From: Motiliproteus sp.
GTDB taxonomy: Bacteria; Pseudomonadota; Gammaproteobacteria; Pseudomonadales; Balneatricaceae
Length of the DNA: 61,586 bases
Direction: 5' to 3'
Assembly (NCBI GenBank): GCA_026196225.1
Contig: JAPHRD010000060.1
Span: 1-61,586 of the forward strand
Positions within the stretch are counted from its first letter, which is position 1. Every line of letters starts with the position of its first letter. The position numbers and the translations under genes were made by a program. Shown piece after piece: positions 23,429 to 39,600 of the stretch. Below the pieces are notes generated by a model that saw nothing but the letters and a program-made list of their open reading frames with translations, did not search any database and was not told the origin of the DNA.

Positions 23429-23966
23429 CGATACTCTCCTGAAATCGGATCGGTGAAATTATTCTGATTCTTTCTTATCTCATCCTAGATCACAACTCCC
23501 TTTGTTTCTAATTTAGTGCAGATCGGCATAGGCGTAATTTTTCAATCACTTATCGGCCTGTTTATTGCTCGTCTTACTATTGGACTTAAAAAAGCTGCAA
23601 AAGCGGCAATTATTGACCGGCCGGAGCCTACCGCCAGGGAGATGCCTATGCACCAATCCAGAATCTTATAAGCAACATCAAAATACCTAAATACGCCTTT
23701 ACACGGGCATGGTCGCCGCAACCCTGAGGTTTTGACGATCGATTTGTCTGTGGGGATTTTTTTGCGCCAGCGATTCCATTTCAGATCACTGGTCAGGGAG
23801 TTGTATGGCCCGAAATTTTAGCCAAGGCTCCTGCCCCATAGCCAATTAAACCCATGCCGCCAAAGGCAGGAATTTGCCGCTCTATATCTTCGATTTAGCG
23901 GCACGGGATTGTTGTGCCCAGAGCTTAGGGTCACAACCCGCATATTTAACTTCAGAGGAAGTTTTT
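23429..23966 (+). promoter_or_regulatory. Long non-coding region and structured leader
   Basis: This 538-bp gap shows no gene on either strand. The last 100 bases can fold: GCCGCT (23876-23881) with AGCGGC (23897-23902), GGCAC (23900-23904) with GTGCC (23914-23918), and GTTGTG (23911-23916) with CACAAC (23932-23937), some of these being mutually exclusive. An earlier segment around 23590-23650 contains GCAAAAGC, CCGGCCGG and CTACCGCC, which loosely recalls a c-di-GMP-I riboswitch 3' half, but the conserved 5' half is not visible, so no riboswitch is called. The ribosome site GAGGAAG precedes the ATG at 23967. Confidence 0.4.
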
Positions 23967-25133
23967 ATGATTATTGAAAGCAGTAACATCAGCTTTAGTG
24001 TCGAACATGAAAAATACCAATTCAGTGAACGCAGCAGCTCTTTGGACGCCTTCAAAATGGAACTCAACAGCGCCCAGCTTCGACTCTCTGACGGTGTAGT
24101 CAGCGAACCTGGAGCACCCCTTTGGGCTCAGCTTTTACCAACGGATGGTGCCGAGATAATGGACGGCATTCCGTCTCTATTCTCAAATGGGGAAACTCAA
24201 AATGTTAATCCGGTTGAGCGCCAACGCGACGCTTTAGGGTCTTCTTTGTTGGAAACCCATGATCGCCTGTTCCAGGCACTACTGGCAGCACTGACCGAAC
24301 GCTTGGAAATGCTCAGAGCAGGAACCGATCAATCACCAACCTCGGAGGATTCTACAACTGCTGACGCAGCTTCTGCAGGTGCGGGGTCTACAGATACGCC
24401 TTCTACCAGCATAACTGCCGCAGCAACTCGCCCCTCCACTGACCAACCACTATTCAGCGCAGAAATTCGGACTTTTAGTCTCAATGTTCAGATCACCGAA
24501 TTCGTTCAGGAATCTGAAGTCACCGATGTGCAATCCAACGGTGTTATCAACACCCTGGACGGGCGTGCCTTTGACTTCAACATGAACCTAGTGATGAGCA
24601 GAAGCTACGAAGCCACTCGAGAGTATCAGCAAACCCAGGAAATTCTGTTTAAAGATCCCTTAATCGTCAATTTCGATGGCAATTCCGCTGAGCTGACAGA
24701 GCAGCAGTATGAATTCGATATCGATGCTGACGGCGAAATGGATTGGATCAGTCTAGCCACTGGTAGCAGCGGCTTGTTGGCCCTAGATCAGAACGGTGAT
24801 GGCATTATTAACGATGGCAGCGAACTGTTCGGAGCTATCAGCGGCGACGGCTTTTCAGATCTATCCATCTACGATGAAGATAACAATGGCTTTATCGACG
24901 AGGCCGATAGCATCTTCGAAGACCTGATGCTGTGGAATAAAAACGGCGAGGAGGATCAGCTGGCATCCCTATCTGATCAGAACGTAGGCGCTATCTACTT
25001 GGGGTCAATCGAAAGCCCTTTCGATCTGAAAGATGATTCCAACAACATCCAGGGACAGGTCCGGGAGACCGGTATCTATCTATCCGAGGAGGGAGAGGTA
25101 GGATCCGTTCAGCAGATCGACTTAGCGGTATAA
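23967..25133 (+). CDS. Calcium-binding RTX-tail-like protein (388 aa)
   Basis: The ATG at 23967 follows a good ribosome site, and the longer upstream frame is not used. The first 180 residues are unrecognised, with a Ser/Thr/Ala-rich linker around 125-160. The C-terminal 150 residues match the module usually found near the end of very large RTX/VCBS exoproteins: DIDADGEMDWI, LLALDQNGDGIINDGSELFG, DEDNNGFIDEAD, with EF-hand-like DxDxDG calcium loops. There are no RTX nonapeptide repeats and no Sec signal peptide, so if secreted it would need a type I or other system not encoded here. The function is unknown and surface or matrix roles are speculative. Confidence 0.75.
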   Translation: MIIESSNISFSVEHEKYQFSERSSSLDAFKMELNSAQLRLSDGVVSEPGAPLWAQLLPTDGAEIMDGIPSLFSNGETQNVNPVERQRDALGSSLLETHDRLFQALLAALTERLEMLRAGTDQSPTSEDSTTADAASAGAGSTDTPSTSITAAATRPSTDQPLFSAEIRTFSLNVQITEFVQESEVTDVQSNGVINTLDGRAFDFNMNLVMSRSYEATREYQQTQEILFKDPLIVNFDGNSAELTEQQYEFDIDADGEMDWISLATGSSGLLALDQNGDGIINDGSELFGAISGDGFSDLSIYDEDNNGFIDEADSIFEDLMLWNKNGEEDQLASLSDQNVGAIYLGSIESPFDLKDDSNNIQGQVRETGIYLSEEGEVGSVQQIDLAV

Positions 25134-25142
25134 GCTGCTAAC

Positions 25143-25180
25143 TTCTTTGTGGCGCTAGGACAATCAGGCGCCACAAAGAA
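25143..25180. terminator. Shared 13-bp stem terminator
   Basis: TTCTTTGTGGCGC at 25143-25155 and its exact complement GCGCCACAAAGAA at 25168-25180 form a perfect 13-bp stem with a 12-base loop. It lies between the convergent calcium-binding protein gene and the luxR-type gene. The last codons of the latter (VLCGA) are encoded inside the stem. Confidence 0.7.
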
Positions 25181-25784
25181 CCAGATCATGGGTCATCATT
25201 GCAGCATGGGTGCGGTTGGTAAAACCAGCCTTACGACAAGCTCTGGCAAGGTGAACCTTGACGGTATTGAGCTGCAGATTCATCCGTTCGGCAATAGCAC
25301 GATTGCTCAACCCCTCCTGGAGGTGAGAGAGTACCACTCGCTCACTGTTGGAAAGGTCGTAAAGATCCGGTTTAAAGTCCAATTTTAGTGCATCCTCCTG
25401 CTGGCGACGCAGCACCGTAGCGCACCCATTGTGTGCAATCATCTCGGCCAAATAATTTTCCGCCACAGAACAGTGCACAGACAGAGGTAAGCAAAGATCA
25501 ACCTTGTTCTTTAGCAGCAGTCGGCGATGACGTTTGCCAAATTCCTGAGTAAACAAAACAATCTTGCAGCCACTCATTCGAGCACTGCTATCTAGACGTT
25601 TAAGTAGCTGTTGATCTCCGGGGGGAACACAGATAATTAATAGGTCAGCACCCTGCAAAAGCCCATTCTTAAAGCCTTCGATTCGTTTTTCTTCGTGAAT
25701 TTCCGGCAATTGGCTCTTTCTTAACAAGTCAGCAATAGCCAGTCGATACAAGGGTTGCTGGCCAACTATTAATGCTGTTTTCAT
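25164..25784 (-). CDS. LuxR/FixJ-family regulator with atypical receiver
   Basis: 206 residues. The C-terminal helix-turn-helix is canonical (LSNSERVVLSHLQEGLSNRA... NTVKVHLARACRKAGFTNR, about 143-190). The N-terminal domain is receiver-like in outline, beginning MKTALIVGQQPLYRLAIADLL, but where the phosphorylated Asp should stand the sequence is ADLLIICVPPG, with Cys52 in that position. No sensor kinase adjoins it. It is therefore probably phosphorylation-independent or controlled in another way. It converges on the calcium-binding protein gene, a possible but unproven target. Confidence 0.85.
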   Translation of the reverse strand: MKTALIVGQQPLYRLAIADLLRKSQLPEIHEEKRIEGFKNGLLQGADLLIICVPPGDQQLLKRLDSSARMSGCKIVLFTQEFGKRHRRLLLKNKVDLCLPLSVHCSVAENYLAEMIAHNGCATVLRRQQEDALKLDFKPDLYDLSNSERVVLSHLQEGLSNRAIAERMNLQLNTVKVHLARACRKAGFTNRTHAAMMTHDLVLCGA

Positions 25785-25906: not shown

Positions 25907-26686
25907 TCAAAAGGTGCCTGGAAAAGCACCGCCATCGATCAGGAGATTCTGGCCACTGATAAATCCACTTTGAGATGCGCACAGAAAAGCACAGGCAGCA
26001 CCAAATTCATCGGGATCGCCAAAGCGGCCTGCAGGATTGGATTGTCGGCGTAACTCTATGATCTGATCCAGTGTTTTTCCCTGCTGTTTGGCGGCCCCCT
26101 GCAAAGTTTGCTGCAGGCGATCCGTTTCAAAAGGGCCTGGTAGCAGGTTATTGATGGTGACGTTGTGAGCCACCGTCTGTCTTGCCAATCCAGCCACAAA
26201 TCCGGTCAGACCTGAGCGGGCACCATTGGATAATCCAAGGCTTGGGATAGGCGCTTTCACGGCACCGGAGGTAATGTTAACGATACGCCCGAATTGGCGA
26301 TCCTGCATGCCATCCACCACTGCTTTAATCAGCATGATAGGAGTCAGCATATTGGCTTCAACCGCTGCGATCCAATCGTCGTGTTGCCAATCACGAAAAT
26401 CTCCGGGAGGCGGACCGCCAGCGTTGTTCACAAGGATATCTGGATCTGGACATGCGGCCAAAACTGCCTGACGCCCAGCCTCTGTGGTTATATCACAAGC
26501 AACTGCCGTTACCGGAACGCCTGTGTGAGTTCGTATTTCCTCAGCAGTCTGCTCTAGGATTTCTGGGGTGCGGGCATTAATAACCAGCTCAACCCCTTCC
26601 TGGGCCAACGCCATCGCGCAGGCCTTACCCAAGCCTTTCGACGCTGCACAAACAATTGCTTTACGACCACTAATTCCTAACTCCAC
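25907..26686 (-). CDS. SDR-family oxidoreductase lacking canonical YxxxK
   Basis: 259 residues with the short-chain dehydrogenase fold: cofactor loop CAASKGLGKA (13-22), NNAG (87-90), Ser140 in NITSGAVK, and the C-terminal GQNLLIDGG. The catalytic Tyr-x3-Lys, expected about 13 residues after Ser140, is replaced by Ser153-NGA-Arg157 (LSNGARSGLTG). A subgroup of SDRs carries this substitution and is annotated as 3-oxoacyl-ACP reductase, but activity is unproven. It is the last gene of the TRAP-lhgO minus-strand run, 93 bp after lhgO, which suggests a role on the same substrate. Confidence 0.85.
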   Translation of the reverse strand: MELGISGRKAIVCAASKGLGKACAMALAQEGVELVINARTPEILEQTAEEIRTHTGVPVTAVACDITTEAGRQAVLAACPDPDILVNNAGGPPPGDFRDWQHDDWIAAVEANMLTPIMLIKAVVDGMQDRQFGRIVNITSGAVKAPIPSLGLSNGARSGLTGFVAGLARQTVAHNVTINNLLPGPFETDRLQQTLQGAAKQQGKTLDQIIELRRQSNPAGRFGDPDEFGAACAFLCASQSGFISGQNLLIDGGAFPGTF

Positions 26687-26779
26687 AGCAACCTCCTACT
26701 CGACTGCCTGACCAGCGTATTGCCAAAACTTTTGCTTTCGTCCTTTCTTCTTAGGTTTTCTTCTACATCGTTGTTTGAA

Positions 26780-27985
26780 CTATTCGCCCGTCTTATCGAC
26801 TACCTGTTCGACAATATAGTTGCCGATCGGAATGGCAGACGTAGCGGCTGGTGATGGCGCGTTACAGACATGTAGCGAGCGAGCACTTTCTGCAAACAGA
26901 AAATCATGGACCAAAGATCCATCCTTCATCACCGCCTGAGCCCGAATACCAGCCGGATAGGGTTGCAGATCCTTGAGCTGCACACTGGGGCAATACTTCT
27001 GTACCAATTTTAGATAACCCGGCTTCCACCAGGAATTTTTAGTTTCCACCAACCCGGTCTTGATGTTGGCCCGCAAGACCTTCCAGAAACCGCTAAAGCT
27101 AATCATCTCCCAAATATCCTTCGGACTGATATTGATACGCCCGTAACCTTCTCGCTTCCAGCCCTGCACAGCATTGGGTCCTACAGTGACGGAACCATCG
27201 ATCATGCGAGTCAGATGGACCCCCAAAAATGGCAGATCAGGGTCAGGGATTGGATAGATCAGATGCTTAACGATGCCATTCATCGATTCTGGCAACTGGT
27301 AGTATTCACCGCGGAAAGGAATAATCTGGAAATCGGTCTCGATCCCCATCATCCGGGTAATACGATCCGCCATCAGCCCCGAACAGCTAATCAGAAAACG
27401 GCTACGGACCTGTCCCTGATTGGTGTCGATAAAGATCTCATCACCCTGCTCCCGGACAGCAGTAACCTCGGTGTTTAACCGCGTCTCCCCCCCCAGATCC
27501 CGGAAACACTGAGCCATTTTGATACAGACCTGCTGGTAATCAACAATGCCGGTCGTATGGACCAGTATTGCCCCAACACCCTCAATGTTGGGCTCCCGTT
27601 CACGCAGTTGGGATTGATCCAGCCACTCCACATCCAGATCATTTTCCTGACAGCGCTCAAACAGCGCTTCCATCCGTTCAAATTCCAGGTCGTTGGTTGC
27701 AACCAGAAGCTTGCCACACTGCTCAAAGGGGATGTTTTGTTGCTGGCAAAATTGAATAGTGGCCGCGACGCCCTCTTTGCAAAACTGAGCCTTCAAACTG
27801 CCTGGTTGGTAGTAAACACCTGCGTGGATGACACCACTGTTATGACCGGTCTGGTGACAGGCGAACTGATGCTCTTTTTCTATCACCAGAACAGATTTTT
27901 CTGGAAAGCGTTGCTGCAACTGCCACGCGGTGGAAAGACCAACGATACCACCACCAATAATGACAAAATCGTATAGGGTGTTCAT
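26780..27985 (-). CDS. lhgO: L-2-hydroxyglutarate oxidase LhgO
   Basis: 401-residue FAD-dependent oxidase/dehydrogenase oxidising L-2-hydroxyglutarate to 2-oxoglutarate, with electrons going to the quinone pool in E. coli. The FAD dinucleotide fold is FVIIGGGIVGLSTAWQLQ (7-24). Family motifs HQTGHNSGVIHAGVYYQPGS, GLMADRITRMMG and GPNAVQGWKREGY follow. Length matches. It is located 75 bp downstream of the TRAP permease, with a poor ribosome site. The neighbourhood (TAXI transporter, SDR, and YdiJ for the D-isomer) points to catabolism of imported 2-hydroxyglutarate or a similar acid. Confidence 0.92.
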   Translation of the reverse strand: MNTLYDFVIIGGGIVGLSTAWQLQQRFPEKSVLVIEKEHQFACHQTGHNSGVIHAGVYYQPGSLKAQFCKEGVAATIQFCQQQNIPFEQCGKLLVATNDLEFERMEALFERCQENDLDVEWLDQSQLREREPNIEGVGAILVHTTGIVDYQQVCIKMAQCFRDLGGETRLNTEVTAVREQGDEIFIDTNQGQVRSRFLISCSGLMADRITRMMGIETDFQIIPFRGEYYQLPESMNGIVKHLIYPIPDPDLPFLGVHLTRMIDGSVTVGPNAVQGWKREGYGRINISPKDIWEMISFSGFWKVLRANIKTGLVETKNSWWKPGYLKLVQKYCPSVQLKDLQPYPAGIRAQAVMKDGSLVHDFLFAESARSLHVCNAPSPAATSAIPIGNYIVEQVVDKTGE

Positions 27986-28060
27986 AAGATAAAAATTCTT
28001 AATCGATGTAAAAATGTGGGGAGGCTGGCATCCCCACGTTGTGCAAGGACCACCTGCTAC

Positions 28061-30193
28061 CTAAGCGGCAGCAGCTTGTAGGCTTAGATCCTGACGGCGA
28101 CTGTACCAGAACAATCCCACAAACAGCACGGTAGCGGCCAGATTGACGATCAACAGTTCATGGGGCCATAACAGCACGACCCCCAAAGCCAGTGCCAGGA
28201 TGCGATTGAACCAGTTCAATGGAGTCTCCAAGTACCCTTCCATGGCAGCCGCCAAGGCATAGATACCCACTAGCGAGAAACCGAAAATGGTCAACATCTC
28301 TACCAATGAACCACCGATAAACTGGGTATAGGCGAACAACAGCGGAACAATATAGAGTCCTTTGGCTACCTTCCAGGCGGTAAAGCCGGTTGCCATAGGA
28401 GGCGTTTTGGCAATAGCCGCCGCAGCAAAGGCCGTTAAGCAGACTGGAGGTGTGACGTTACTGTCCTGGGATAACCAGAAGATAATCATATGAGCAGATA
28501 GCAGCGCCATCGCCAAGGTATGAGGATCAACCGCTTGCTCCAACAGGGTCGGCTTAAAATCGGAAGGAATCATGGCCAGCAACGACGATGCATCGATCTG
28601 ACTCATGGGTGCTGCCAGAACGACCATGGCTTCTGGATCAGCCAACATAAAGATCGCTTTTGCCGCTTCAGGCAGAGTTCCGTCAACCATCAATTGAAGT
28701 AGCTGGGCTTCGCTGATGAGACTGTACAGTGCAGGAGCTGACAGGGTACCCAGGACAATATAAGAAGCCGTCACAGGTAATCCCATCCCCAATACCAGTG
28801 AAGCGATGGCCACCAGCATCACCGTGATTAACAGACTACCGCCTGCCCAGTTGTTAATCATCAAAGAGAAGGTATTGCCCACTCCAGTGGTAGAGATCAC
28901 GTTTACGATAAGACCGATAGCTACCAGCAGAATTGCAGTGGTGGCCATGTTTCTCGCGCCCTGGGCCAACGCATCAAGCACATCCTTGAAACCCATAGGT
29001 TTGCTGGATAACCAAGATGCCGCCACGACCGATATGATGCTGATACCCGCAGCGTAGGTGGGTGTAAATCCATAGATCAGCAGAGAAACCAGTACAGCGA
29101 TCGGCAACAGGAAATGCCAGCCATTCCTGAATACTTCACCGATCGGCGGCGTATCCATCTCCACCGAATCAGCATGACTACGTTTGGCTTCGATACGCAC
29201 AAACATGGCTACGGACAGAAAATAGAGCAAGGCCGGTAACGCCGCGTATCCGATAATATCCACGTAAGGTATCTGTGTGTAAGACGCCATGATAAAGGCA
29301 CCCGCACCCATTACCGGTGGCATCAACTGCCCCCCCGTGGAGGCGGCTGCTTCTACCCCTGCTGAGAATCGGGCCGGGAATCCCGCCTTACGCATCAGCG
29401 GAATGGTGATCACCCCCGTTGATACGGTATTGGCTACGGATGAACCAGACACCGATCCCATCAAGCCGGAGCCAAACACCGCCACAAAACCGGGACCACC
29501 AACAAAGCGACCGGCAGCACAGCGGGCTAATTCGACAATAAAATCACCGGCACCTGATTTCACCAGGAAGGCACCGAACAGGATAAACATAAACACATAG
29601 GTCCAGGAGATTCGGGCGATAGATCCGAACATCCCTTCACCGCTGAAGTAACTGCGAAACAGCAGAGTTTCCAGACTCAATCCAGGGAAGTTGAACACCC
29701 CTCCCAGATACTTACCCCACCAGAACACGTAGGTCAGTGCCACCAGGATCAGACAGGGAATAAACCAACCGGTAGTGCGGCGGGTCAGTTCCAACGCCAC
29801 AGCAATGGCCAAGATAGCCGCGACCCAGTCGGCGGTAATAAAATTCACGCCACGGTCATAGAGAGCGTTTTCGAATACCATTAGATAGACGGTACAGCCA
29901 ACGGCAATCAATCCAATGGCAATGTCGATAAACAGAATCCCTTTCTGATGCACAGCGCCCCGCTTCATGGGGATCATCAGTGCACAAAGGAAGGCAAATC
30001 CACCAAAATGAATTGCCGATACCCAGAGCTCCGACAGGGTTCCCAGAGTATTGAAATAGATATGAGCTATGGAAAAACAGATTCCCAGCCAGTACACCAC
30101 TCGACCAGAGAAGCTGGTTTCACCGCGTTGGCTCAACTCCATCTGTTCCAGTTTCTTTTTTGTATCTTTGTCAACGATGGTCTCAGCGGACAT
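28061..30193 (-). CDS. TRAP transporter fused permease (4TM-12TM), TAXI type
   Basis: About 710 residues, the fused small and large permease subunits typical of TAXI-TRAP systems that use an ion gradient to import organic acids. The start ATG at 30193 is chosen because GGGAGG sits 6 nt upstream. The N-terminal four-helix DctQ-like part is followed by the DctM-like part with motifs such as GSGLMGSVSGSSVANTVSTG, EAAASTGGQLMPPVMGAGAF and LGMGLPVTASYIVLG. It is separated from its receptor gene by a strong terminator, implying lower expression than the receptor. Substrate is inferred only from neighbours. Confidence 0.93.
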   Translation of the reverse strand: MSAETIVDKDTKKKLEQMELSQRGETSFSGRVVYWLGICFSIAHIYFNTLGTLSELWVSAIHFGGFAFLCALMIPMKRGAVHQKGILFIDIAIGLIAVGCTVYLMVFENALYDRGVNFITADWVAAILAIAVALELTRRTTGWFIPCLILVALTYVFWWGKYLGGVFNFPGLSLETLLFRSYFSGEGMFGSIARISWTYVFMFILFGAFLVKSGAGDFIVELARCAAGRFVGGPGFVAVFGSGLMGSVSGSSVANTVSTGVITIPLMRKAGFPARFSAGVEAAASTGGQLMPPVMGAGAFIMASYTQIPYVDIIGYAALPALLYFLSVAMFVRIEAKRSHADSVEMDTPPIGEVFRNGWHFLLPIAVLVSLLIYGFTPTYAAGISIISVVAASWLSSKPMGFKDVLDALAQGARNMATTAILLVAIGLIVNVISTTGVGNTFSLMINNWAGGSLLITVMLVAIASLVLGMGLPVTASYIVLGTLSAPALYSLISEAQLLQLMVDGTLPEAAKAIFMLADPEAMVVLAAPMSQIDASSLLAMIPSDFKPTLLEQAVDPHTLAMALLSAHMIIFWLSQDSNVTPPVCLTAFAAAAIAKTPPMATGFTAWKVAKGLYIVPLLFAYTQFIGGSLVEMLTIFGFSLVGIYALAAAMEGYLETPLNWFNRILALALGVVLLWPHELLIVNLAATVLFVGLFWYSRRQDLSLQAAAA

Positions 30194-30388
30194 GACCAAC
30201 CTCCCAACCTGCATCAAAGCCCTGTAACTCAGACAAATTCAGGGACATGACTATTTCGATTTTGCAAACGCTGACTATGTCATCAGCACAACTGAAGAAA
30301 AAGGAGTGCTTACTAGAAGCACTCAAACCACCACATGCGACGCGGTTGAGGAGTAGAGACACAGAGCCTCTTCACCAAATCACGAACT

Positions 30389-30414
30389 AAAAAAGAGGGT
30401 GCCCTTAGGCACCC
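30389..30414 (-). terminator. Intercistronic terminator between TAXI receptor and permease genes
   Basis: On the minus strand GGGTGCC-TAAG-GGCACCC is followed by TC and six Ts. It begins 11 bases after the stop codon of the receptor gene. It is a textbook factor-independent terminator within the operon, so partial read-through would set the ratio of periplasmic receptor to permease. Confidence 0.85.
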
Positions 30415-30425
30415 GAGGATAGCTA

Positions 30426-31457
30426 TTAATTAGCAACCAGGTGAGCGGGAATTGTCAGACCTTTCTCGCGGTAGAACTTAGCCGCACCAGGGTGAAGAGG
30501 TACCGGCAGACCAGCAATCGCCTTTTCAAGCGCCATCGCCTTGGTTGCCTTGTGGATGCCGTTCAGGAAGGGTAGGTTTTCGTAGATGGTCTTGGTGATC
30601 ATGTACACATCTTCTTCCGGCAAATCGCTACGGGCCGCCAGGAAGTTTGGCTGAGCGATAGTATTAATATCCTTGCTCTGACCAGGATAGGTGTTGGCAG
30701 GGATCACATAACGGGTCCACAGATTGTATCCGCCATTCGCCTTTTTCATCTGCTCATCGCTGAAATCCAGCACCGTCATATCGCTACCCAGGGCAGCAAA
30801 AGCACGAGTAATCGCACTGACCGGAACACCAGCAGGAATATTCATACCCTCAACCGCGCCATTCTGCATGGCATCGGCGCTAGGACCATATCCCATGTAG
30901 GCCAAATCGAAACTATCTGGATCCACACCCAGTCCGCCCATGATCTGACGACCAGAACCTTCCGTTCCAGAGTTACGCTTACCGATAGAGAATTTCTTGC
31001 CCTTCAACGCTGCCAAATCACTTACCGTTCCGGACTTAGCGTGCTTGGAAAGAACTGAAAAATGCTCAACGTTTTGCCACAACATACTGACCGAACGCAG
31101 GTTCTTCTGAGGGCCGCTGTTCTTAACTTTACCTTCACCGTTCCATGCCCAGGCGCCATAAAGACCCTGCATGATGGCAAACTGCGCTTCATTTTCACGA
31201 AGCAATTTAACGTTCTCACCGGATCCGGCAGAGCTGATCGCTGACATGGAGATCTTATGCTTTGGCTCTAGCTTCACCTTCGACAGGGTCGCCAGGGCTA
31301 CACCTACCGGATAGTAAGTCCCTCCGGTTGAAGCGGTGGCCAGAATATAGGAGCGGGGTTCAGCAGCCTGTGCGGGCAGGCTTGCCATGGTTAGGGACGC
31401 ACCTAAAGTCAGTGCAATACCCAAGCCCTTAATAAAATTACGCTTAGTCGTAGGCAT
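30426..31457 (-). CDS. TAXI-family TRAP solute-binding protein
   Basis: 343 residues from the ATG at 31457, which has AGGAAAG five bases upstream; ATGs a few codons further up are less well placed. The signal peptide runs to PAQAAE. Its n-region TKRNFIKGLG resembles a twin-arginine motif with Lys-Arg in place of Arg-Arg, so export route (Sec or Tat) is uncertain. The mature protein has the TAXI pattern: ILATASTGGTYYPVGVALAT, ATGSGENVKLL-like SSAGSGENVKLL, and KRNSGTEGSGRQIM. The gene is first after the sigma-54 promoter and captures the substrate for the downstream permease. Confidence 0.92.
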   Translation of the reverse strand: MPTTKRNFIKGLGIALTLGASLTMASLPAQAAEPRSYILATASTGGTYYPVGVALATLSKVKLEPKHKISMSAISSAGSGENVKLLRENEAQFAIMQGLYGAWAWNGEGKVKNSGPQKNLRSVSMLWQNVEHFSVLSKHAKSGTVSDLAALKGKKFSIGKRNSGTEGSGRQIMGGLGVDPDSFDLAYMGYGPSADAMQNGAVEGMNIPAGVPVSAITRAFAALGSDMTVLDFSDEQMKKANGGYNLWTRYVIPANTYPGQSKDINTIAQPNFLAARSDLPEEDVYMITKTIYENLPFLNGIHKATKAMALEKAIAGLPVPLHPGAAKFYREKGLTIPAHLVAN

Positions 31458-31578
31458 TATCGCTTTCCTCATCATCAAATTATCTTTTTGTATTTCTTTT
31501 GCTTTTTATCTGGGGCGGCGCCCTGTGCTAGCGACCGCAACTCGTTGGCTTTTATTCAAAGAGTTTCCCAATAGTTAG

Positions 31579-31594
31579 AGCAACAGTCGTACCA
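31579..31594 (-). promoter_or_regulatory. Sigma-54 (-24/-12) promoter
   Basis: Minus strand reads TGGTACGACTGTTGCT, differing from consensus TGGCACG-N4-TTGCW at one position. GG and GC are separated by exactly 10 bases. The predicted transcription start is near 31568, upstream of the TAXI receptor gene. The adjacent regulator carries an intact GAFTGA sigma-54 contact motif, which makes the assignment coherent. Confidence 0.75.
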
Positions 31595-31665
31595 ATCAGA
31601 TAAAAAGATAACAACCATCTGTTTTTAAAAGATATTTTTTAACATGAAGATATTACGAACAACCA

Positions 31666-31719
31666 ATAAGCAAAAATTGGCCGATTGATTTTGACCACTA
31701 TCGGCAATTTTTTGCTTAT
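31666..31719. promoter_or_regulatory. Candidate enhancer site 1 (inverted repeat)
   Basis: ATAAGCAAAAATTGGCCGAT at 31666-31685 and ATCGGCAATTTTTTGCTTAT at 31700-31719 are inverted copies, 18 of 20 positions identical, separated by 14 bases. The site lies about 70-125 bp upstream of the sigma-54 promoter, a normal distance for an NtrC/DctD-type upstream activating sequence. Confidence 0.6.
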
Positions 31720-31773
31720 CGAGAATTCTTAGCCACTCAACGTTACGCTACTTCCCAACCGGTTTGAGTGGCA

Positions 31774-31873
31774 ACTAAAAATTGCCGGCAGAACAAGCAA
31801 AAAGACAATTCTGATCGGGAGAATTGGAGGGAAAAGCCTGCCGGTCCAAAAGCATCGGCAATTTTTTGCCTAA
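31774..31873. promoter_or_regulatory. Candidate enhancer site 2 (two further half-sites)
   Basis: A minus-strand copy at 31774-31790 (core CGGCAATTTTT on the minus strand with one changed flank) and a plus-strand copy ATCGGCAATTTTTTGC at 31854-31869. The latter is identical over 16 bases to the plus-strand arm of site 1. Their wider spacing (about 80 bp between centres) suggests they are either separate half-sites or part of a looped array. Confidence 0.5.
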
Positions 31874-31940
31874 ATCGGCTAATCGACGGGAAGAATACGG
31901 CAGCTGGCCCTGGACTGCCAAATCGTTTACTGCCAGATAA

Positions 31941-33302
31941 TTAATGAGTAAAGTCAGAGCGGTTGATACCAAACTTCTGCATCTTTTGATTCAGAGTTCG
32001 TCGGGGTAGCTCCAGCTCATCCATCACCGCCTGAATATTGCCCTGATGTTTCTGCAAACAGCGGCGAATAACCTGTGCTTCAAAGTTCTGCACCTGAAGG
32101 CTGAGAGGGATTCCAGAATCGCTGGCAGTAGAGATCTGCGGCACATTGCTGGGAGACAACAATTCGGTCAGATTACAATGGGGATCGAGACCAAAGCGCA
32201 TAGCGATATTGCGCAGCTCCCGGACATTACCAGGCCAACGGTATTGTTTGAGAGTACGGACCTCCTGGCCCGAGCAAGAGGTGTAGTCGATATCCTGGCG
32301 ATTAGCTTCCTGGCGAGCAAAATGCTCAAACAGCAGAGGAATATCCTCCTGCCGCTCCCGCAGTGGCGGAATATATAGTTGGCCAACATTGAGGCGGTAA
32401 AACAGATCCTGGCGAAAACCATCATCTCCCTTCAGTTCAACTTTAGTGGCGGCAACCACCCGAACATCTACTTCAACAATCTTGTTGTCACCCAGCCGCT
32501 CTACCGCCCCCTCTTGAATCGACCGCAGCACTTTTACCTGCAAATTGAGCGGCATGCTCTCGATCTCATCCATAAACAGAGTGCCGCCATCGGCATACTC
32601 AAACTTACCCACCCGACGCTTGCTAGCCCCGGTAAAGGCACCCGCCTCGTGGCCAAACAGCTCGCTTTCAAACAGACTTTCCGGAATCGCACCACAGTTC
32701 AAGGGCACGAATTTACGGCGTTTGCGGGGACTGAAATCGTGCAGGCACTGGGCCACCAGTTCCTTACCACAGCCAGTCTCTCCATAGATAATCAGATTGG
32801 TGTCGATCTGTGCCATCCGTAGCAGCTCTTCCCGCAGTTGGACGATAGCTGGAGAAACGCCGATGATCCGGGTTTCGATCCCCTCTCCTTCAGCAATTTG
32901 TTGCTGCAGACGCTGATTTTCCATAGTCAGGTGACGCTTCTCGCAGGCTCGATGCACCGATTCCACCAAACGCTCGGGGTCGTAGGGTTTCTCGATAAAA
33001 TCGTAGGCGCCTTCCCGCAGCGACTCGATCGCCATCTGCACATCACCGTGCCCGGTAACCAGGATCACAGGCAGTTCCGGCACCTTCTTTAGGGCTTCCC
33101 GCAACAGCTCCTGGCCATCCATCTGCGGCATTTTTACATCAGTTACCAATACCCCCTGGAAATCCTTGGAAAGCGCGGCTAAGGCTGACTTGGCCTCGGA
33201 AAAACCACGCACTTCAAATCCGGCCAGCTGCAGCCATTGCTCGGTGGCTTGACGCACCAACTCTTCATCATCAACCAAAAACACCTGCCCACGAATATCC
33301 AT
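31941..33302 (-). CDS. Sigma-54-dependent response regulator, DctD-like
   Basis: 453 residues in the NtrC/DctD layout. The receiver domain (1-120) has phospho-acceptor Asp55 in VTDVKMPQMDG. The AAA+ domain has Walker A GETGCGKE (174-181) and the sigma-54 contact loop GAFTGA (221-226), then GTLFMDEIESM. A Fis-type helix-turn-helix ends the protein (NIQAVMDELELPRRTLNQKM). It starts 3 bp after the dctB-like kinase stop, so the pair is one operon. It lies immediately upstream of a sigma-54 promoter and inverted-repeat sites. Target assignment to the TAXI operon is inference from this layout. Confidence 0.93.
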   Translation of the reverse strand: MDIRGQVFLVDDEELVRQATEQWLQLAGFEVRGFSEAKSALAALSKDFQGVLVTDVKMPQMDGQELLREALKKVPELPVILVTGHGDVQMAIESLREGAYDFIEKPYDPERLVESVHRACEKRHLTMENQRLQQQIAEGEGIETRIIGVSPAIVQLREELLRMAQIDTNLIIYGETGCGKELVAQCLHDFSPRKRRKFVPLNCGAIPESLFESELFGHEAGAFTGASKRRVGKFEYADGGTLFMDEIESMPLNLQVKVLRSIQEGAVERLGDNKIVEVDVRVVAATKVELKGDDGFRQDLFYRLNVGQLYIPPLRERQEDIPLLFEHFARQEANRQDIDYTSCSGQEVRTLKQYRWPGNVRELRNIAMRFGLDPHCNLTELLSPSNVPQISTASDSGIPLSLQVQNFEAQVIRRCLQKHQGNIQAVMDELELPRRTLNQKMQKFGINRSDFTH

Positions 33303-33305
33303 CGA

Positions 33306-35480
33306 TCAATGCTCTCCTCGCAGCGATTGTTCGCTGGAGTTGGTGTTGATATCTAATCCATCCTGGCTGCCAAATAGTGGCAACGAGACAATAAAACAGG
33401 CACCACCTTCAGGCCGATTCTCTACCCGTATACTGCCTTCCAAGTCACGAATAATACCATAGGAGATCGACAGCCCCAGACCCAATCCATCCCCCACCTC
33501 TTTGGTGGTAAAAAACGGATCGAACAGATGGGACAAAGCCTGTTCCGTCAGCCCACAGCCACTATCACTGATCCGTAGACAGGCCTGTTGCGATTCCTGT
33601 TGCAACTGAATATGCAGGGATCGTACCGAACTGTCATTCATAGCATCGAGCGCGTTACGGATCAGATTGATCAACACCTGCTCAAGACGCGGCTTATCAC
33701 CATACACTTGGATACCTTCAGACAACCGGGTGCTGAGCTGAACCTGCTGCTCATCGATACGATCGCTGAACATCGACAGGGTGTCCTGAATAACCGTACC
33801 GATATCCACCGAGCCCAGCTTTTCCGGCCGTTTATGGGCAAAGGTTTTCAGCTGCGAGGTAATCAGCGCCATCCGTTGGGTCATATCGGCCATGCGCTGC
33901 AGATTCTGTTCCACCGATTCATACTGCTGACGCTCCAGAAACAACCGAGTGCTGGAGGCCATGGTGCGTATCGCTGTCAGCGGCTGATTGAGTTCATGGG
34001 CGATAGCCGCCGACATGGTGCCCAGCGCTGCCAATTTGCTGCTTTGTATAAGTTCGGCCTGAGCCTCCCGTAGTTCTTGGGTGCGCTCAGAAACTCGATG
34101 CTCCAACTCTTCGTTAGCCTGTTGTAGCGCTTTTTCGGCCTGTTTACGGAGGGTGATATCCACCAACGTAACCAGGTAGCCATCACGATCTCCCCAGGCG
34201 ATAGGATTCACCGATATCAGCATCGGGAACTGTTCTCCCCCCAGACGTTTAGCAGTTCCTTCTACGGCGTTGATGGGTGAGATCGACTGCCCCTGCACCA
34301 GATCCTGGAGAACCTGTTTCAGTAGCGGCGGACTGTTTTCGATATCGATCAGGCTATCGATCCGCCGACCCAATACCGCATCCTGTTCGCCACCAAATTG
34401 TTGCAAGGCTCGGGGGTTAATAAACATCACGTCACCGTGGCTATCCACCGTCAACAGGCCCGATTGGGTATTACTGATGATCGCCCGTTGCTGAGCCTCA
34501 TTGTGCAGTCGTAGCTCTCGGGTTTCACGTCGAGACAGATTACGTAGCAGTCGCTCACGGTAGAAGAGCGCCAACAGCGCCACAGCCAATCCCGCCCCCA
34601 GACAAAATAGCGTGATGGTCTGCTGCTGTTGCTCCACCGGCGCCAGATCGGAAAGAAAATGTACCTGCCATTTCAAATCATCCAAATCCACCGATTGCAC
34701 CAGATAGGATTGGCCGTTCTGCCCCTGTAAAACATTGACAGTGGTGCCATCCAACAGCTGTTGCCGCAGCCACTGATAGGGCAACAGCTGCTTGCTTTCC
34801 AAGTAGCCAAAACCCGGTAGCCGTCGATCGTGCCACCCCGGCAGACTGGAGAGGAAGATCAGTCCCTCATCATCACTAACCAGCAGCCGCTCCTGTGCCA
34901 CTGCCCACAGTTCCTGGAACTCCCGCAAATCGATCATCACCACGGCCACACCGATCAATTTGAGATCATCATAAATCGGCGCCGACAGGTAATAGCCCGG
35001 CACATCGGTAACATCCGGAAGCTGAACGTAATGTCCCAGCTCCCCCTCCCTGGCCTTAAAGAAGAAAGGCCGGTCGCCGTAGTAGCGTCCAAGCTCCGCA
35101 TCTCGGCTGCGCCACTCGCTGGTAGCCATCAGGTGGCCACCATTGTCGAGAACAAACCAGCGGGCAGTAGAAACAATTTGGTTGGTCTGCTCCAGGTATA
35201 AATTAACCTCTGGGAGCAAGGACTCATCGCCGATCAGCAGATTACGCACATCGATATTCTGCGACAGTACGTAGGGAAGATGATTGGAGCGATTGAGGGT
35301 CTGGCGAATACCGGTGATGTAACCAAGCAACCGTTCTTCACCATCCCGATGGATGCTTTCCACAGCCAGACTGTGGGAGTAATTACGTACCTGCCAGGTC
35401 ACTAGCAGGGTAATTAAAATCAGGAAGACCAGGGCACTGGTACTGCTCAGTCGTCGCATCCTGGTCAAAATAAAGTTCAT
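33306..35480 (-). CDS. Membrane sensor histidine kinase, DctB-like
   Basis: 724 residues. A first membrane helix (about 14-31) and a second (about 295-315, TITLFCLGAGLAVALLALFY) flank a periplasmic double-Cache-type ligand domain, which includes YYLSAPIYDDLKLIGVAVVM. A cytoplasmic PAS domain follows (GLLTVDSHGDVMFINPRALQ), then a coiled coil, the HisKA box with phospho-His495 in AAIAHELNQPLTAIR, and an HATPase with NLIRNALDAM and GLGLSISYGI. It is expected to sense an extracellular organic acid and phosphorylate the adjacent regulator. The extra PAS domain is more than the classical DctB has. Confidence 0.92.
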   Translation of the reverse strand: MNFILTRMRRLSSTSALVFLILITLLVTWQVRNYSHSLAVESIHRDGEERLLGYITGIRQTLNRSNHLPYVLSQNIDVRNLLIGDESLLPEVNLYLEQTNQIVSTARWFVLDNGGHLMATSEWRSRDAELGRYYGDRPFFFKAREGELGHYVQLPDVTDVPGYYLSAPIYDDLKLIGVAVVMIDLREFQELWAVAQERLLVSDDEGLIFLSSLPGWHDRRLPGFGYLESKQLLPYQWLRQQLLDGTTVNVLQGQNGQSYLVQSVDLDDLKWQVHFLSDLAPVEQQQQTITLFCLGAGLAVALLALFYRERLLRNLSRRETRELRLHNEAQQRAIISNTQSGLLTVDSHGDVMFINPRALQQFGGEQDAVLGRRIDSLIDIENSPPLLKQVLQDLVQGQSISPINAVEGTAKRLGGEQFPMLISVNPIAWGDRDGYLVTLVDITLRKQAEKALQQANEELEHRVSERTQELREAQAELIQSSKLAALGTMSAAIAHELNQPLTAIRTMASSTRLFLERQQYESVEQNLQRMADMTQRMALITSQLKTFAHKRPEKLGSVDIGTVIQDTLSMFSDRIDEQQVQLSTRLSEGIQVYGDKPRLEQVLINLIRNALDAMNDSSVRSLHIQLQQESQQACLRISDSGCGLTEQALSHLFDPFFTTKEVGDGLGLGLSISYGIIRDLEGSIRVENRPEGGACFIVSLPLFGSQDGLDINTNSSEQSLRGEH

Positions 35481-35602: not shown

Positions 35603-36526
35603 TCAAATTTTCCTGACGTGAGCTGGCAACAATAGTTTGCCAATACCTTCGATCACCAACTGCCTCATCGCCTCCGCTGCTGGAGACAAGGCCCGGCCTC
35701 GACGGGTCAGAATATGTATTTCACGAAAGCAAGGCGGATCTTCGATCGGCCTGAACAGCAACTGCCTGAAAGAGTCGGTAGCTGCAGCCAAGGCCGGCAG
35801 AACCGACACCCCCAGCCCCTGCTCAACCAGCGCTGCCAACACAGCGGGATTGCTGACTTCGATAAGTGACTGCTGAGGAACATTGGCATCGTTCATTGCA
35901 GAAAGCTGGGCACGAATCCCTGTATCAGAAGAAAGAGAAAGCTGTTCGATATCTTTCAATTGTTGCCAGCAGATCTGGTCCCTTGCTGCCAAGATATGCT
36001 CAGCCGGAAACACAACTCCGTAGCGATCCTGTAACAATGGCTGATAATCAAGATCGGGATGGTTGGAATGGTTACCGGCAATGCCGAAGTCCACTTCGTT
36101 GTTCAGCACCCGTTGCTCAATAGCGCCAGCACTGTCATCGCGCAGATAAACAGCGATATTGTCGTACTGGCGATGATAATCACGGACCAGCGGAGGAAGA
36201 ATACAGGTCAGCACAGACGGTGATCCGGCAATACTAAGCTCACCGGCCTGCTGCTCTGCCCGAGCCTGAAGGTCGGTCAGTGCAGTATCAAAATCAGACA
36301 ACAAACGTTCCGCTACCGGTAGGAAACGCTCTCCCTCCGAAGTCAACAGCACTCGTCGGGTGGTACGATCCAACAGGGTCAGCCCCACCTGACCTTCCAG
36401 CTGCTTAATGGTCGCTGTCAGGGTCGATTGGGTCACGTGCAAGCTGTCTGCTGCTCGGGTAAAACTGCCGCAATCGGCTACTTGCCGAAAAGCTCGCAGA
36501 TGTCGGATCGATATATTATTCGGCAT
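35603..36526 (-). CDS. LysR-family transcriptional regulator
   Basis: 307 residues: winged helix-turn-helix at the N-terminus (RHLRAFRQVADCGSFTRAAD, QSTLTATIKQLEGQVGLTLL) and a LysR substrate-binding domain. It is divergent from the ydiJ-type gene across 118 bp that contain dyads suited to a LysR protein, so autoregulation and control of that gene are likely. It also lies just upstream of the dctB-like kinase on the same strand (122-bp gap), linking the two halves of the putative hydroxy-acid locus. The effector is unknown. Confidence 0.9.
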   Translation of the reverse strand: MPNNISIRHLRAFRQVADCGSFTRAADSLHVTQSTLTATIKQLEGQVGLTLLDRTTRRVLLTSEGERFLPVAERLLSDFDTALTDLQARAEQQAGELSIAGSPSVLTCILPPLVRDYHRQYDNIAVYLRDDSAGAIEQRVLNNEVDFGIAGNHSNHPDLDYQPLLQDRYGVVFPAEHILAARDQICWQQLKDIEQLSLSSDTGIRAQLSAMNDANVPQQSLIEVSNPAVLAALVEQGLGVSVLPALAAATDSFRQLLFRPIEDPPCFREIHILTRRGRALSPAAEAMRQLVIEGIGKLLLPAHVRKI

Positions 36527-36644: not shown

Positions 36645-39600
36645 ATGATCCCACGCCTGTCTGAAGTCGAAACCACTGAACAGATCTACCTGCAATACCT
36701 CGAAAAACTGAAATCCAGTGGTTTTCAGGGGGATATCAATAACGATTACGGCAACCGCATCGTTCAGTCCACCGACAACAGTATCTATCAGCTGCTACCT
36801 CAGGGTGTGCTCTATCCAAAAACCATTGAGGATCTGCAGCTGATTGCCCGAGTCAGCAACGAGCCACGCTTTCATGAGGTCGCCTTAAGCCCTCGCGGTG
36901 GCGGCACCGGCACCAACGGCCAATCCCTGAGCGATGGTTTGATTGTCGATGTCTCTAAACACATGAATACGATTCTCGAGATCAATCCTGAAGAACGCTG
37001 GGTGCGAGTCCAGGGTGGTGTCGTCAAAGACCAACTCAATGCCGCCCTTAAACCTTACGGACTGTTCTTTGCGCCAGAGCTGTCCACCAGTAACCGCGCC
37101 ACCATCGGCGGCATGATCAACACCGATGCCAGCGGCCAAGGATCGGTGCTGTACGGTAAGACTCGGGATCATGTACTGGAACTCAACACCGTCTTGCTGG
37201 ATGGCAGTCTCTGGAACGCAGGGCCGATCAGCGATACGGAGCTGAACGAGATCCAACAACGGGATGATCGAATCGGCGAAGTCCACCGTTTGGTGGATCA
37301 GATCTTTAACGACAACCAAGCGCTGATCGATGCAAAATTCCCCAAACTAAACCGCTGTCTGACCGGTTACGATCTCGCCCATATCCGGGATGACCAGGGC
37401 CAGTTCAACCTCAATTCCATCCTCTGTGGCGCAGAAGGCTCCCTGGGGCTAATCGCCGAAGCGAAACTCAATGTACTGCCGATTCCCAAATTCGCCGCCC
37501 TGGTCAATATCAAATACGACAGCTTCGAAACCTCTTTAAGAGACGCCAAAGCGCTGATGGATTGGGACCCGACCTCCATCGAAACCATCGATTCGAAAGT
37601 TCTGAATCTAGCCATGGGCGATATCATCTGGGACACAGTGCGGGATTACTTCCCCAATGAAGCCGGTGAACCTGAGATTCAAGGCATCAACCTGGTGGAA
37701 TATACCGCCGATGATGAGAATGAGTTGAAGCGCAAAGTCGACGCACTCTGCCAGAACCTAGAATCGGTACAAGGCGATCAAGGGAAAAGCTTTGGATTCA
37801 GCGTCGTTTACGGCGCAGCGGAGATCGCTAAAATCTGGGCCATGCGCAAAAAAGCGGTGGGGCTACTGGGTAACGCCAAAGGCCAGGAACGCCCGATTCC
37901 TTTTGTAGAAGACACCGCCGTACCCCCTGAAAACCTGGCGGATTTTATTATGGAATTCCGCAGCGTGCTGGACAGCCATGACCTGGCTTACGGCATGTTT
38001 GGTCATGTGGATGCCGGGGTTCTGCACGTGCGGCCCGCCATCGATATGAAGGATATCCCCCAAGAGGGACTGATCCGGGAGATTACCGACCAGGTGGTGG
38101 CGCTCACCAAAAAATATAACGGCCTGCTGTGGGGGGAACACGGTAAGGGCGTTCGTTCTGAATATGCACCGGAATTCTTCGGTGAGCTCTATCCGCAGCT
38201 GCAACGCATAAAAGGAGCTTTCGACCCTCGCAATCAACTCAACCCCGGCAAAATCGCTACACCACGGGTGGATGATCAGACCCCAGAAGGGGCCGAACTG
38301 CTGAAAATTGATGGTGTCCCTACCCGTGGCCAGTTCGACCGACAGATCCAATCCCATGTGCGGGAAGAGTACGACTCGGCAATGTTCTGCAACGGCAACG
38401 GTGCCTGCTTCAACTACGACCCCAAGGACGCTATGTGTCCCAGTTGGAAGGGTACCCGCCAACGCGTACATTCTCCCAAAGGCCGTTCTTCGCTGATTCG
38501 GGAATGGTTACGTTTGATGACTCAGCAAGGGGTTGACCTGGTCGGTGCGAGCAACGGTGCCAAGCGCCAATCCTTTATTGGTTCGCTGCCAGACCGAATC
38601 AAAAACACCCTGGCTAAAAAGCGTGGCGAGTACGATTTTTCCCACGAAGTGAATGAATCGATGCAAGCCTGTCTTGCCTGTAAATCCTGCGTCGGCCAGT
38701 GCCCCATCAAGGTCAATGTGCCAGATTTTCGTGCCCGCTTCCTGGAAGTCTATTACAGCCGTTACCTGCGCCCAGCCAAGGACTACCTGGTGGGTAGCCT
38801 GGAATTTATGATGCCATGGGTCGCCCGCTGGCCTGCCCCCTACAACTGGGCCATGTCCAACTCGGTGATTAAATCGCTGCTGGAACGCTACGCCGGGATG
38901 GTCGACAGCCCAACCGTCTGTAAGCTGCCACTGATGTCCAGCCTGCAGCAACGGGGAGTCGAGTTAGCCACCCCTGAATGGATCGACCAACTCAGCCAAT
39001 CTCAAAAAGAGCGTACTCTGGTCATCGTCCAGGACGCCTTCACCAGCTACTTCGAAACCCAGCTGGTACTGGACCTGGCAGAACTGTTGAAAGCCTTGGA
39101 CTTCAACGTGTTGGTTGCCCCCTACCTCCCCAATGGCAAGCCACTGCATGTCCATGGATTTATGCAATCTTTTGAGAAGGCAGCCCTACGCAATACCGAT
39201 ATGCTACGACGCCTGGATCAATGTGGCGTATCGCTGATTGGCATCGATCCATCAATGACCCTGACCTACCGTCAGGAGTATGGCTATGTGATCCCGGAAA
39301 AGGATCTACCTCAGGTGCAACTGATCCAAGAGTGGCTACAAACTCAGCTGGATAAGGTCCAAGCACTAAATCTTCAGCTGCCGGCAAATCAATTCAAACT
39401 ACTTGCCCACTGCACCGAAAAAACCTCAGCAGCCCCCAGCATTCGCAGCTGGCAGGCTCTGTTCGAAACCCTGGGCCAAGAGCTTGAAGTGATCAGTGTC
39501 GGCTGTTGCGGGATGTCTGGAACCTACGGCCACGAAACCGCCAACCGGGAAACGTCAGAACGCATCTATCAACTAAGCTGGTCTGAAGTGGTTAACGCTG

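Follow-up and report, generated by a model that had tools for sequence, protein, structure and literature searches.

A TAXI-type TRAP transporter beside lhgO under putative sigma-54 two-component control in a relative of Motiliproteus

What does a TAXI-type TRAP transporter take up when its genes lie between a DctB/DctD-like two-component system and the gene for an L-2-hydroxyglutarate oxidase, and is it controlled by that system? This question is raised by a 61,586-nucleotide stretch of DNA from Motiliproteus sp. (assembly GCA_026196225.1, contig JAPHRD010000060.1), hereafter the window, which is contig C40 of a 3.96 Mb Motiliproteus-relative genome that is 98.9% complete. The first-pass annotation, made from the letters of the sequence, had described six genes on one strand, from a DctB-like kinase to a short-chain dehydrogenase/reductase (SDR), with an intact GAFTGA motif in the activator. 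Pfam and NCBIfam profiles recovered all six on the minus strand, with GAFTGA at residue 221 of the activator. In transcription order, the kinase and activator genes are followed by an intergenic control region and by the genes for the TAXI receptor, the fused permease, LhgO and the SDR, as listed here in window coordinates.

33306-35480, minus strand: DctB/MifS-like sensor histidine kinase with periplasmic dCache_1, PAS, HisKA and HATPase_c domains (Pfam)
31941-33302, minus strand: DctD/MifR-like sigma-54 activator with receiver, AAA+ and Fis-type helix-turn-helix domains (Pfam; GAFTGA; tree)
31854-31873, no strand assigned: dyad 3, ATCGGCAATTTTTTGCCTAA, one mismatch (pattern scan)
31700-31719, no strand assigned: dyad 2, ATCGGCAATTTTTTGCTTAT, exact (pattern scan)
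31666-31685, no strand assigned: dyad 1, ATAAGCAAAAATTGGCCGAT, exact (pattern scan)
31579-31595, minus strand: putative -24/-12 sigma-54 promoter, TTGGTACGACTGTTGCT (sequence; scoring against controls)
30426-31457, minus strand: TAXI-family TRAP solute receptor, 343 amino acids (TIGR02122, 330 bits against a cutoff of 84; PF16868, 378 against 27)
30397-30414, minus strand: terminator-like hairpin GGGTGCC-TAAG-GGCACCC followed by TCTTTTTT, between the receptor and permease genes (terminator scan)
28061-30193, minus strand: fused TRAP permease, a single gene (TIGR02123, 665 bits against a cutoff of 321)
28016-28037, minus strand: second, weaker terminator-like hairpin, between the permease gene and lhgO (terminator scan)
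26780-27985, minus strand: lhgO, L-2-hydroxyglutarate oxidase (NF008726 equivalog, 629 bits against a cutoff of 299)
25907-26686, minus strand: SDR gene with a GTG start (profile searches; comparison with relatives)

For the receptor, the ATG at 31457 was preferred as start over the TTG at 31478. Among solved structures (a structure model was used solely for reaching the names of solved entries), the kinase sensor domain lies nearest to 3by9 and DctB (2zbb, 3e4o), the activator receiver is best matched among receiver-only chains by DctD (1qkk/1l5y), and LhgO is best matched by 8w75; furthermore, the genome holds one sigma-54 match. The gene set is real, conserved and functionally coherent, and the reading we favor, at a probability of about two in three, is an inducible operon for scavenging five-carbon (C5) 2-hydroxy and 2-oxo dicarboxylates under sigma-54 two-component control. 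With its periplasmic Cache domain, the kinase would detect a C5 dicarboxylate outside the cell and then phosphorylate the activator, which would bind 20-bp dyads (ATMRGC-N8-GCYKAT, sites found by comparison) upstream of the -24/-12 promoter and activate sigma-54-dependent transcription of the receptor gene, which would continue by read-through into the permease, lhgO and SDR genes. The TAXI receptor and fused permease would import L-2-hydroxyglutarate, and probably 2-oxoglutarate, and LhgO, to judge by its family, would oxidize L-2-hydroxyglutarate to 2-oxoglutarate, which would then enter the tricarboxylic acid cycle.

The near-consensus promoter of the first-pass annotation is borne out, since TTGGTACGACTGTTGCT lies one base off the sigma-54 consensus. 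It scores 0.98 of the maximum on our own scoring scale, on which at least 0.84 was reached by 42/1085 control upstream regions. Counting 12 bases past the GC of the -12 element gives position 31568, the same start that had been predicted, which would leave a leader of some 111 bases before the ATG at 31457; a Shine-Dalgarno-like GAGGAAAG stands ahead of this ATG. The inverted repeats noticed earlier upstream of the promoter are likewise real: scanned as ATNRGC-N8-GCYNAT, the region holds two exact 20-bp dyads and one with a single mismatch, centered about 83, 117 and 271 bases before the -24 GG.

This arrangement recurs upstream of the receptor gene in relatives, where the common candidate enhancer reads ATMRGC-N8-GCYKAT. 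We compared 105 receptor loci (repeats removed, window included), with linkage defined as a distance within 6 kb, and scanned the 600 bp upstream of each receptor gene with a 17-base seed taken from the window, calling a site dyad-like when it departed from the seed at four positions or fewer; duplicate entries of three loci (L091, L092, L094) were dropped from the dyad counts. A dyad-like site was present at 36/36 loci with both activator and LhgO (38/38 with repeats kept), at 11/12 with the activator only (the same with repeats) and at 5/6 with LhgO only (6/7 with repeats), against a background of 0.03-0.045 per 600 bp elsewhere in the same loci. Promoter scores of at least 0.84 followed at 35/36 and 11/12 of the first two classes, at 2/6 of the LhgO-only loci and at 14/43 of those with neither gene. 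Moreover, two columns outside the seed complete the dyad (96% A and 76% T across 90 sites with at most three mismatches), and the sites cluster at about -57 to -118 and around -194 relative to the -24 element, similar to the window. Conserved in this way across genera, the putative sigma-54 promoter with its upstream dyads supports sigma-54 and enhancer control of the TAXI promoter. A genome-wide regulon drawn from the bare dyad pattern was set aside: among the matches listed for eight genomes, the pattern gave 17-51 sites per genome (one strand) against 8-21 for the reversed pattern, exceeding this control in each genome.

The activators point in the same direction. In a tree of 74 sequences (a quick tree, with support from the Shimodaira-Hasegawa-like approximate likelihood ratio test, SH-aLRT, only), 51/52 TAXI-linked activators and nine others were set apart by a branch with SH-aLRT 96, L108 being the TAXI-linked activator outside it. 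These nine belong to genomes in which a TAXI gene with a dyad lacks an adjacent activator gene, namely Motiliproteus MSK22-1, Balneatrix, Oceanospirillum sediminis, five Marinomonas-type genomes and G051. Together with G006, a same-branch activator was found elsewhere in 10/10 such genomes examined, adjoining a second TAXI copy in G006 and G051. One Grimontia and one Enterovibrio genome each carry one TAXI copy without activator or convincing dyad and a second copy with both. On these comparisons, the dyad and the activator branch go together across genomes, even when the genes are unlinked.

This co-occurrence bears on the possibility that the two-component system controls something else and adjoins the TAXI genes by chance, or that the dyads bind another regulator. 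Such a view would suit the varying order of kinase and activator relative to TAXI among relatives, their distance of about 17 kb from TAXI in MSK22-1, and the activator-linked receptor L109, which has no dyad-like site. However, the ten genomes just described argue against it, as do G054 and G257, where TAXI without a dyad-like site goes with no activator match at E 1e-100, and the finding of no dyad-like site upstream of dctP in the window genome, so that we regard it as very improbable. That genome also has another pair of the DctB/DctD kind, no more than a few kb from a DctP gene, whose activator (C33, L214/L221) lies on the other side of the SH-aLRT 96 branch; the system studied here is therefore a paralogue of DctBD and not DctBD itself. 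The earlier suggestion that DctB/DctD-sigma-54 logic is applied to a TAXI transporter is supported as regards sigma-54 and enhancer control, backed by the conserved dyad and promoter, and is qualified as to the identity of the two-component system.

Linkage between lhgO and the TAXI genes, which had been put forward for checking in relatives, proved conserved: LhgO lies within 6 kb of the receptor at 47/105 loci, and the activator at 52/105. The layout was found in Oceanospirillaceae, Vibrionaceae, Moritella and Psychromonas, with gene orders TAXI-permease-LhgO, LhgO-TAXI-permease (G406) and TAXI-permease-GntR-LhgO (Proteus mirabilis). LhgO requires 14 changes on the receptor tree and has thus come and gone, although its absence may be overstated, as at 6/58 LhgO-negative loci the sequence extends less than 4.5 kb past the receptor, so that these loci may be truncated. 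In an even sample of the order (244 genomes, E 1e-60), TAXI was found in 53 genomes, LhgO in 36 and both in 17, adjacent in six and unlinked in ten, plus G193; in an even sample of the class (369 genomes), the numbers were 14 for TAXI (E 1e-60), nine for LhgO (E 1e-100) and three for both, adjacent in 3/3, window genome included. On the receptor tree, the presence of the activator showed no association with that of LhgO (six independent pairs on starred branches, no trend), and we therefore make no claim that the two-component system follows lhgO. Control of lhgO in trans was also rejected as a candidate, since nine TAXI-unlinked lhgO genes of one Marinomonas-grouping genus (f27 g32) had a dyad with at most four mismatches in 0/9 cases. 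The two-component system thus accompanies the transporter rather than lhgO, which qualifies the earlier proposal of control over the whole set.

Two loci show other neighborhoods of this kind. In G193 (L258:4501-9824; a 1.6 Mb genome), the genes ahead of TAXI and permease code for a distantly related LhgO (31% identity) and an SDR (38%). The Vibrio cortegadensis plasmid p1 (L254:5908-14682) carries glaH-lhgO, succinate-semialdehyde dehydrogenase, gabT and a TRAP system annotated with a separate small permease, which places another type of TRAP transporter next to lhgO.

Ligands are known for few TAXI receptors, L-glutamate being a common one in the family (PMC12344293). The solved chain closest to the window receptor is 9ibp, VCA0144 of Vibrio cholerae, at 71% identity; no paper on this structure was found in the literature searched, where the two papers returned treat other subjects, one of them listing VCA0144 in a biofilm proteome. 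More informative is the TAXI-TRAP system of P. mirabilis, reported as specific for 2-oxoglutarate and 2-hydroxyglutarate in the discussion of a 2025 paper (PMC12344293) and as alpha-ketoglutarate specific and driven by the proton gradient in a 2024 paper (PMC11574862), which also compares the membrane part of the V. cholerae glutamate transporter VcGluP with PMI1055. A P. mirabilis record holds a single TAXI at E 1e-5, 44% identical to the window receptor in the tblastn match and 41% over the alignment; being the only one in the record, it is probably the gene that was studied. It adjoins a fused permease, a GntR-type regulator and LhgO (580 bits against a cutoff of 299).

With the VcGluP contacts taken from PMC11574862 and pocket positions matched by eye in the alignments, VcGluP V44, H123, D157, Y200 and M201 correspond to T47, N129, T165, I207 and P208 in the window and to T, N, T, L and P in P. 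mirabilis. The latter thus agrees with the window, and not with VcGluP, at T47, N129, T165 and P208, which indicates a window pocket of the P. mirabilis kind; both traits of the P. mirabilis-type TAXI, the shared pocket positions and the lhgO linkage, are present in the window. An alternative to be weighed here is a VcGluP-like transporter of glutamate (or glutamine), to which the nearby lhgO would be unrelated. Glutamate may still be a ligand, since the amino-group contacts Y45, Q93 and E125 are kept as Y48, Q97 and E131, and the alpha-carboxylate contact S75 is kept as S79; the wide use of L-glutamate in the family also agrees with it. Against this stand the identity to VcGluP of about 27% (structure match), the four P. 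mirabilis-like pocket positions, the conserved lhgO linkage, and the genome's three further TAXI-family matches, two of which were aligned and carry VcGluP-like pocket motifs. We consider this alternative improbable.

A less distant alternative concerns the role of LhgO. The transporter may serve 2-oxoglutarate or C5 dicarboxylates in general, and the co-expressed LhgO may be a repair enzyme that removes L-2-hydroxyglutarate arising from side reduction of imported 2-oxoglutarate. This would agree with uptake of 2-oxoglutarate by the P. mirabilis transporter (PMC12344293; PMC11574862) and with the alpha-ketoglutarate specificity of MifSR, the nearest studied regulator of the same logic (PMC4482717). 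MSK22-1 offers a further parallel (L110:7064-9456): an acyl-CoA dehydrogenase and a CoA-transferase precede its receptor, which amounts to glutarate-type catabolism next to the transporter, the best model for the CoA-transferase being succinate-glutarate CoA-transferase, below cutoff (551 of 750 bits). Conversely, 2-hydroxyglutarate, too, is among the reported ligands of the P. mirabilis transporter (PMC12344293), and while a repair enzyme could be encoded apart from the importer, lhgO is found next to it time and again, in several gene orders. A repair role appears unlikely, if clearly more plausible than a glutamate transporter or a chance neighborhood.

Several findings weigh against an inducible scavenging operon as we propose it. 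Of the 43 loci that lack both genes in their vicinity, 20 carry a dyad-like site (the same with repeats kept), some of these belonging to genomes that encode the activator at another place, and the activator-linked L109 receptor has neither such a site nor a good promoter. At the threshold used, 36/53 TAXI genomes of the order sample are without LhgO, which would also suit a repair role, and 10/17 with both genes have them unlinked. The nine unlinked lhgO genes without a dyad, the retained amino-group contacts of VcGluP, and the hairpins after the receptor and permease genes, which interrupt the presumed operon, belong here too. Furthermore, CsiD scored over its cutoff in 10/44 genomes with TAXI-linked LhgO (44 of the 47 linked loci entered this count; L117, L249 and L250 were left out) and in 6/35 with unlinked LhgO, adjoining lhgO in 6/6 of the latter by coordinates. 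CsiD had 0 matches in the window genome at 98.9% completeness; this speaks for the scavenging proposal, but as a fact about this genome, its absence as a rule being contradicted by those counts. Finally, 11 TAXI-linked activators read GAFTHA (seven: L120, L124, L130, L131, L136, L142, L093) or GAFTSA (four: L112, L113, L114, L090) in place of GAFTGA, and their best promoters are off-consensus. The best promoter keeps the first T of the -12 TTGC at 0/7 GAFTHA loci against 27/29 classable GAFTGA loci, and the -24 element reads TTGGCC in place of TTGGCA or TTGGTA at 10/11 variant-loop loci, with GGCA or GGTA at 26/29 GAFTGA loci. A joint change of activator loop and promoter is possible; the variants may be one event, since the loci are close relatives.

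Whether the set is transcribed as one message deserves separate attention. The single operon of the first-pass annotation agrees with six genes on one strand, but terminator-like hairpins that it had left unremarked lie in two gaps, so that transcription as one polycistronic message cannot be taken for granted. Across the 11-kb stretch as a whole, such sites show no clear excess (16 against 11.0, standard deviation 3.5, in shuffles); the receptor-permease hairpin stands out by its stem and T-run. A terminator-like hairpin was found in this gap in 21/101 relatives against 0.7 expected, a figure from simple gap shuffles in which Vibrio near-copies are counted several times. Because the hairpins lie in the gaps, sigma-54 control of lhgO would depend on read-through. 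The receptor-permease hairpin is in keeping with overproduction of the receptor, and would probably keep receptor output above that of the permease and enzymes.

Directly upstream of the kinase lie a LysR gene (35603-36526, minus strand) and a YdiJ-type D-2-hydroxyglutarate dehydrogenase gene (36645-39722, plus strand; NF049975, 1647 bits against a cutoff of 1350), so that enzymes for both 2-hydroxyglutarate enantiomers are neighbors in the window. As a conserved neighbor the dehydrogenase was rejected, being found at 0/108 relatives' loci, and it is treated as local for that reason. A bolder version of the scavenging proposal would see here a dedicated environmental L-2-hydroxyglutarate regulon, with 2-hydroxyglutarate itself, from outside the cell, as the signal for the kinase; it would be spread in marine Oceanospirillaceae and Vibrionaceae under its own dyad and, in this species, would cover both enantiomers through the adjacent dehydrogenase. 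We put it forward tentatively, as somewhat unlikely; if true, 2-hydroxyglutarate would be a regular nutrient in the sea.

The SDR is less widely shared. At 55% identity or more it was found at 3/108 loci besides the window, two from Motiliproteus and one from a Rhodospirillales (alphaproteobacterial) metagenome-assembled genome. In the latter (L168:1804-5844) the order is TAXI-permease-SDR, with the SDR after the permease and no LhgO, and the receptor has Met at the Gln97 position, where the 23 other aligned receptors have Gln. An assignment of SDR function from solved relatives was abandoned, because matches at the E 1e-35 level were SDRs or reductases, none with a fitting substrate. Plasmid homologues occur in varied contexts (an Azospirillum record has no annotation there); on a Burkholderia anthina plasmid (L252:5774-7789), the gene before a 68% homologue encodes an alpha-hydroxy acid oxidase, which hints at hydroxy acids as SDR substrates. 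Downstream (3') of the SDR gene and on the same strand, the window has a LuxR-type gene (25164-25784, minus strand), with a 60% identical counterpart 3' of the SDR gene in MSK22-1. A 419-amino-acid open frame (23874-25133, plus strand) gave zero Pfam or NCBIfam matches at E 0.001.

2-Hydroxyglutarate is known mostly as an internal or disease metabolite. If the scavenging proposal is true, it would also be an external carbon source, and sigma-54 would have, next to MifSR, a second way of controlling C5-dicarboxylate uptake. With lhgO and a regulator of its own as neighbors in dozens of marine bacteria, the receptor allows a concrete and readily testable prediction of its ligand.

The first-pass annotation knew of no description of this combination. 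In the literature searched we found no paper joining TAXI, LhgO and a sigma-54 two-component system, none treating TAXI, TRAP transporter and DctD together and none treating L-2-hydroxyglutarate and TRAP transporter together; this literature excludes Roden et al. 2023, where the gene order in P. mirabilis may be discussed. The union thus stands as undescribed there, but not its parts, since the TAXI-LhgO pairing has a precedent in P. mirabilis and sigma-54 two-component control of C5 uptake has one in MifSR.

Among known systems, P. mirabilis is the closest in gene content, with a TAXI receptor 41-44% identical to that of the window, a fused permease and an LhgO-family gene in one cluster. Unlike the window, it has a GntR-type regulator gene in place of the two-component system and no dyad-like site upstream, and its 16.9-kb stretch gave no SDR match. 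Its receptor is reportedly membrane-anchored, to go by the title of Roden et al. 2023, whereas the window receptor likely has a cleaved signal peptide. VcGluP (V. cholerae VC0430) and VCA0144 share the TAXI fold; VCA0144 (9ibp) is the near relative noted above, while VcGluP is glutamate-specific (PMC11574862) and distant.

In the csiD/glaH-lhgO glutarate pathway, controlled by CsiR or LhgR, LhgO makes 2-oxoglutarate from L-2-hydroxyglutarate as would be expected here, and LhgO clusters have been described with csiD, gabD, gabT and gabP or with the GntR repressor LhgR (PMC8206213). The window differs in that its genome gave no CsiD match and the substrate would come from outside. The regulatory half has its own parallels. 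DctB-DctD with a DctP-type TRAP system shares the kinase and activator domain layout and the sigma-54 logic of the window, but it serves C4 dicarboxylates through a DctP-type receptor, where the window set has a TAXI receptor. To our knowledge, PA5530, the transporter target of MifSR, is not a TRAP system. MifS-MifR and RpoN control alpha-ketoglutarate uptake through PA5530 in Pseudomonas aeruginosa, a DctBD-like two-component system with RpoN for C5-dicarboxylate uptake that resembles the window set in its described logic; it differs in its alpha-ketoglutarate specificity and its target, and the parts of the paper covered give no link to LhgO (PMC4482717). Set beside these systems, what seems new is the union of the transporter-LhgO pairing with sigma-54 two-component control, together with a shared enhancer, each half having its own precedent.

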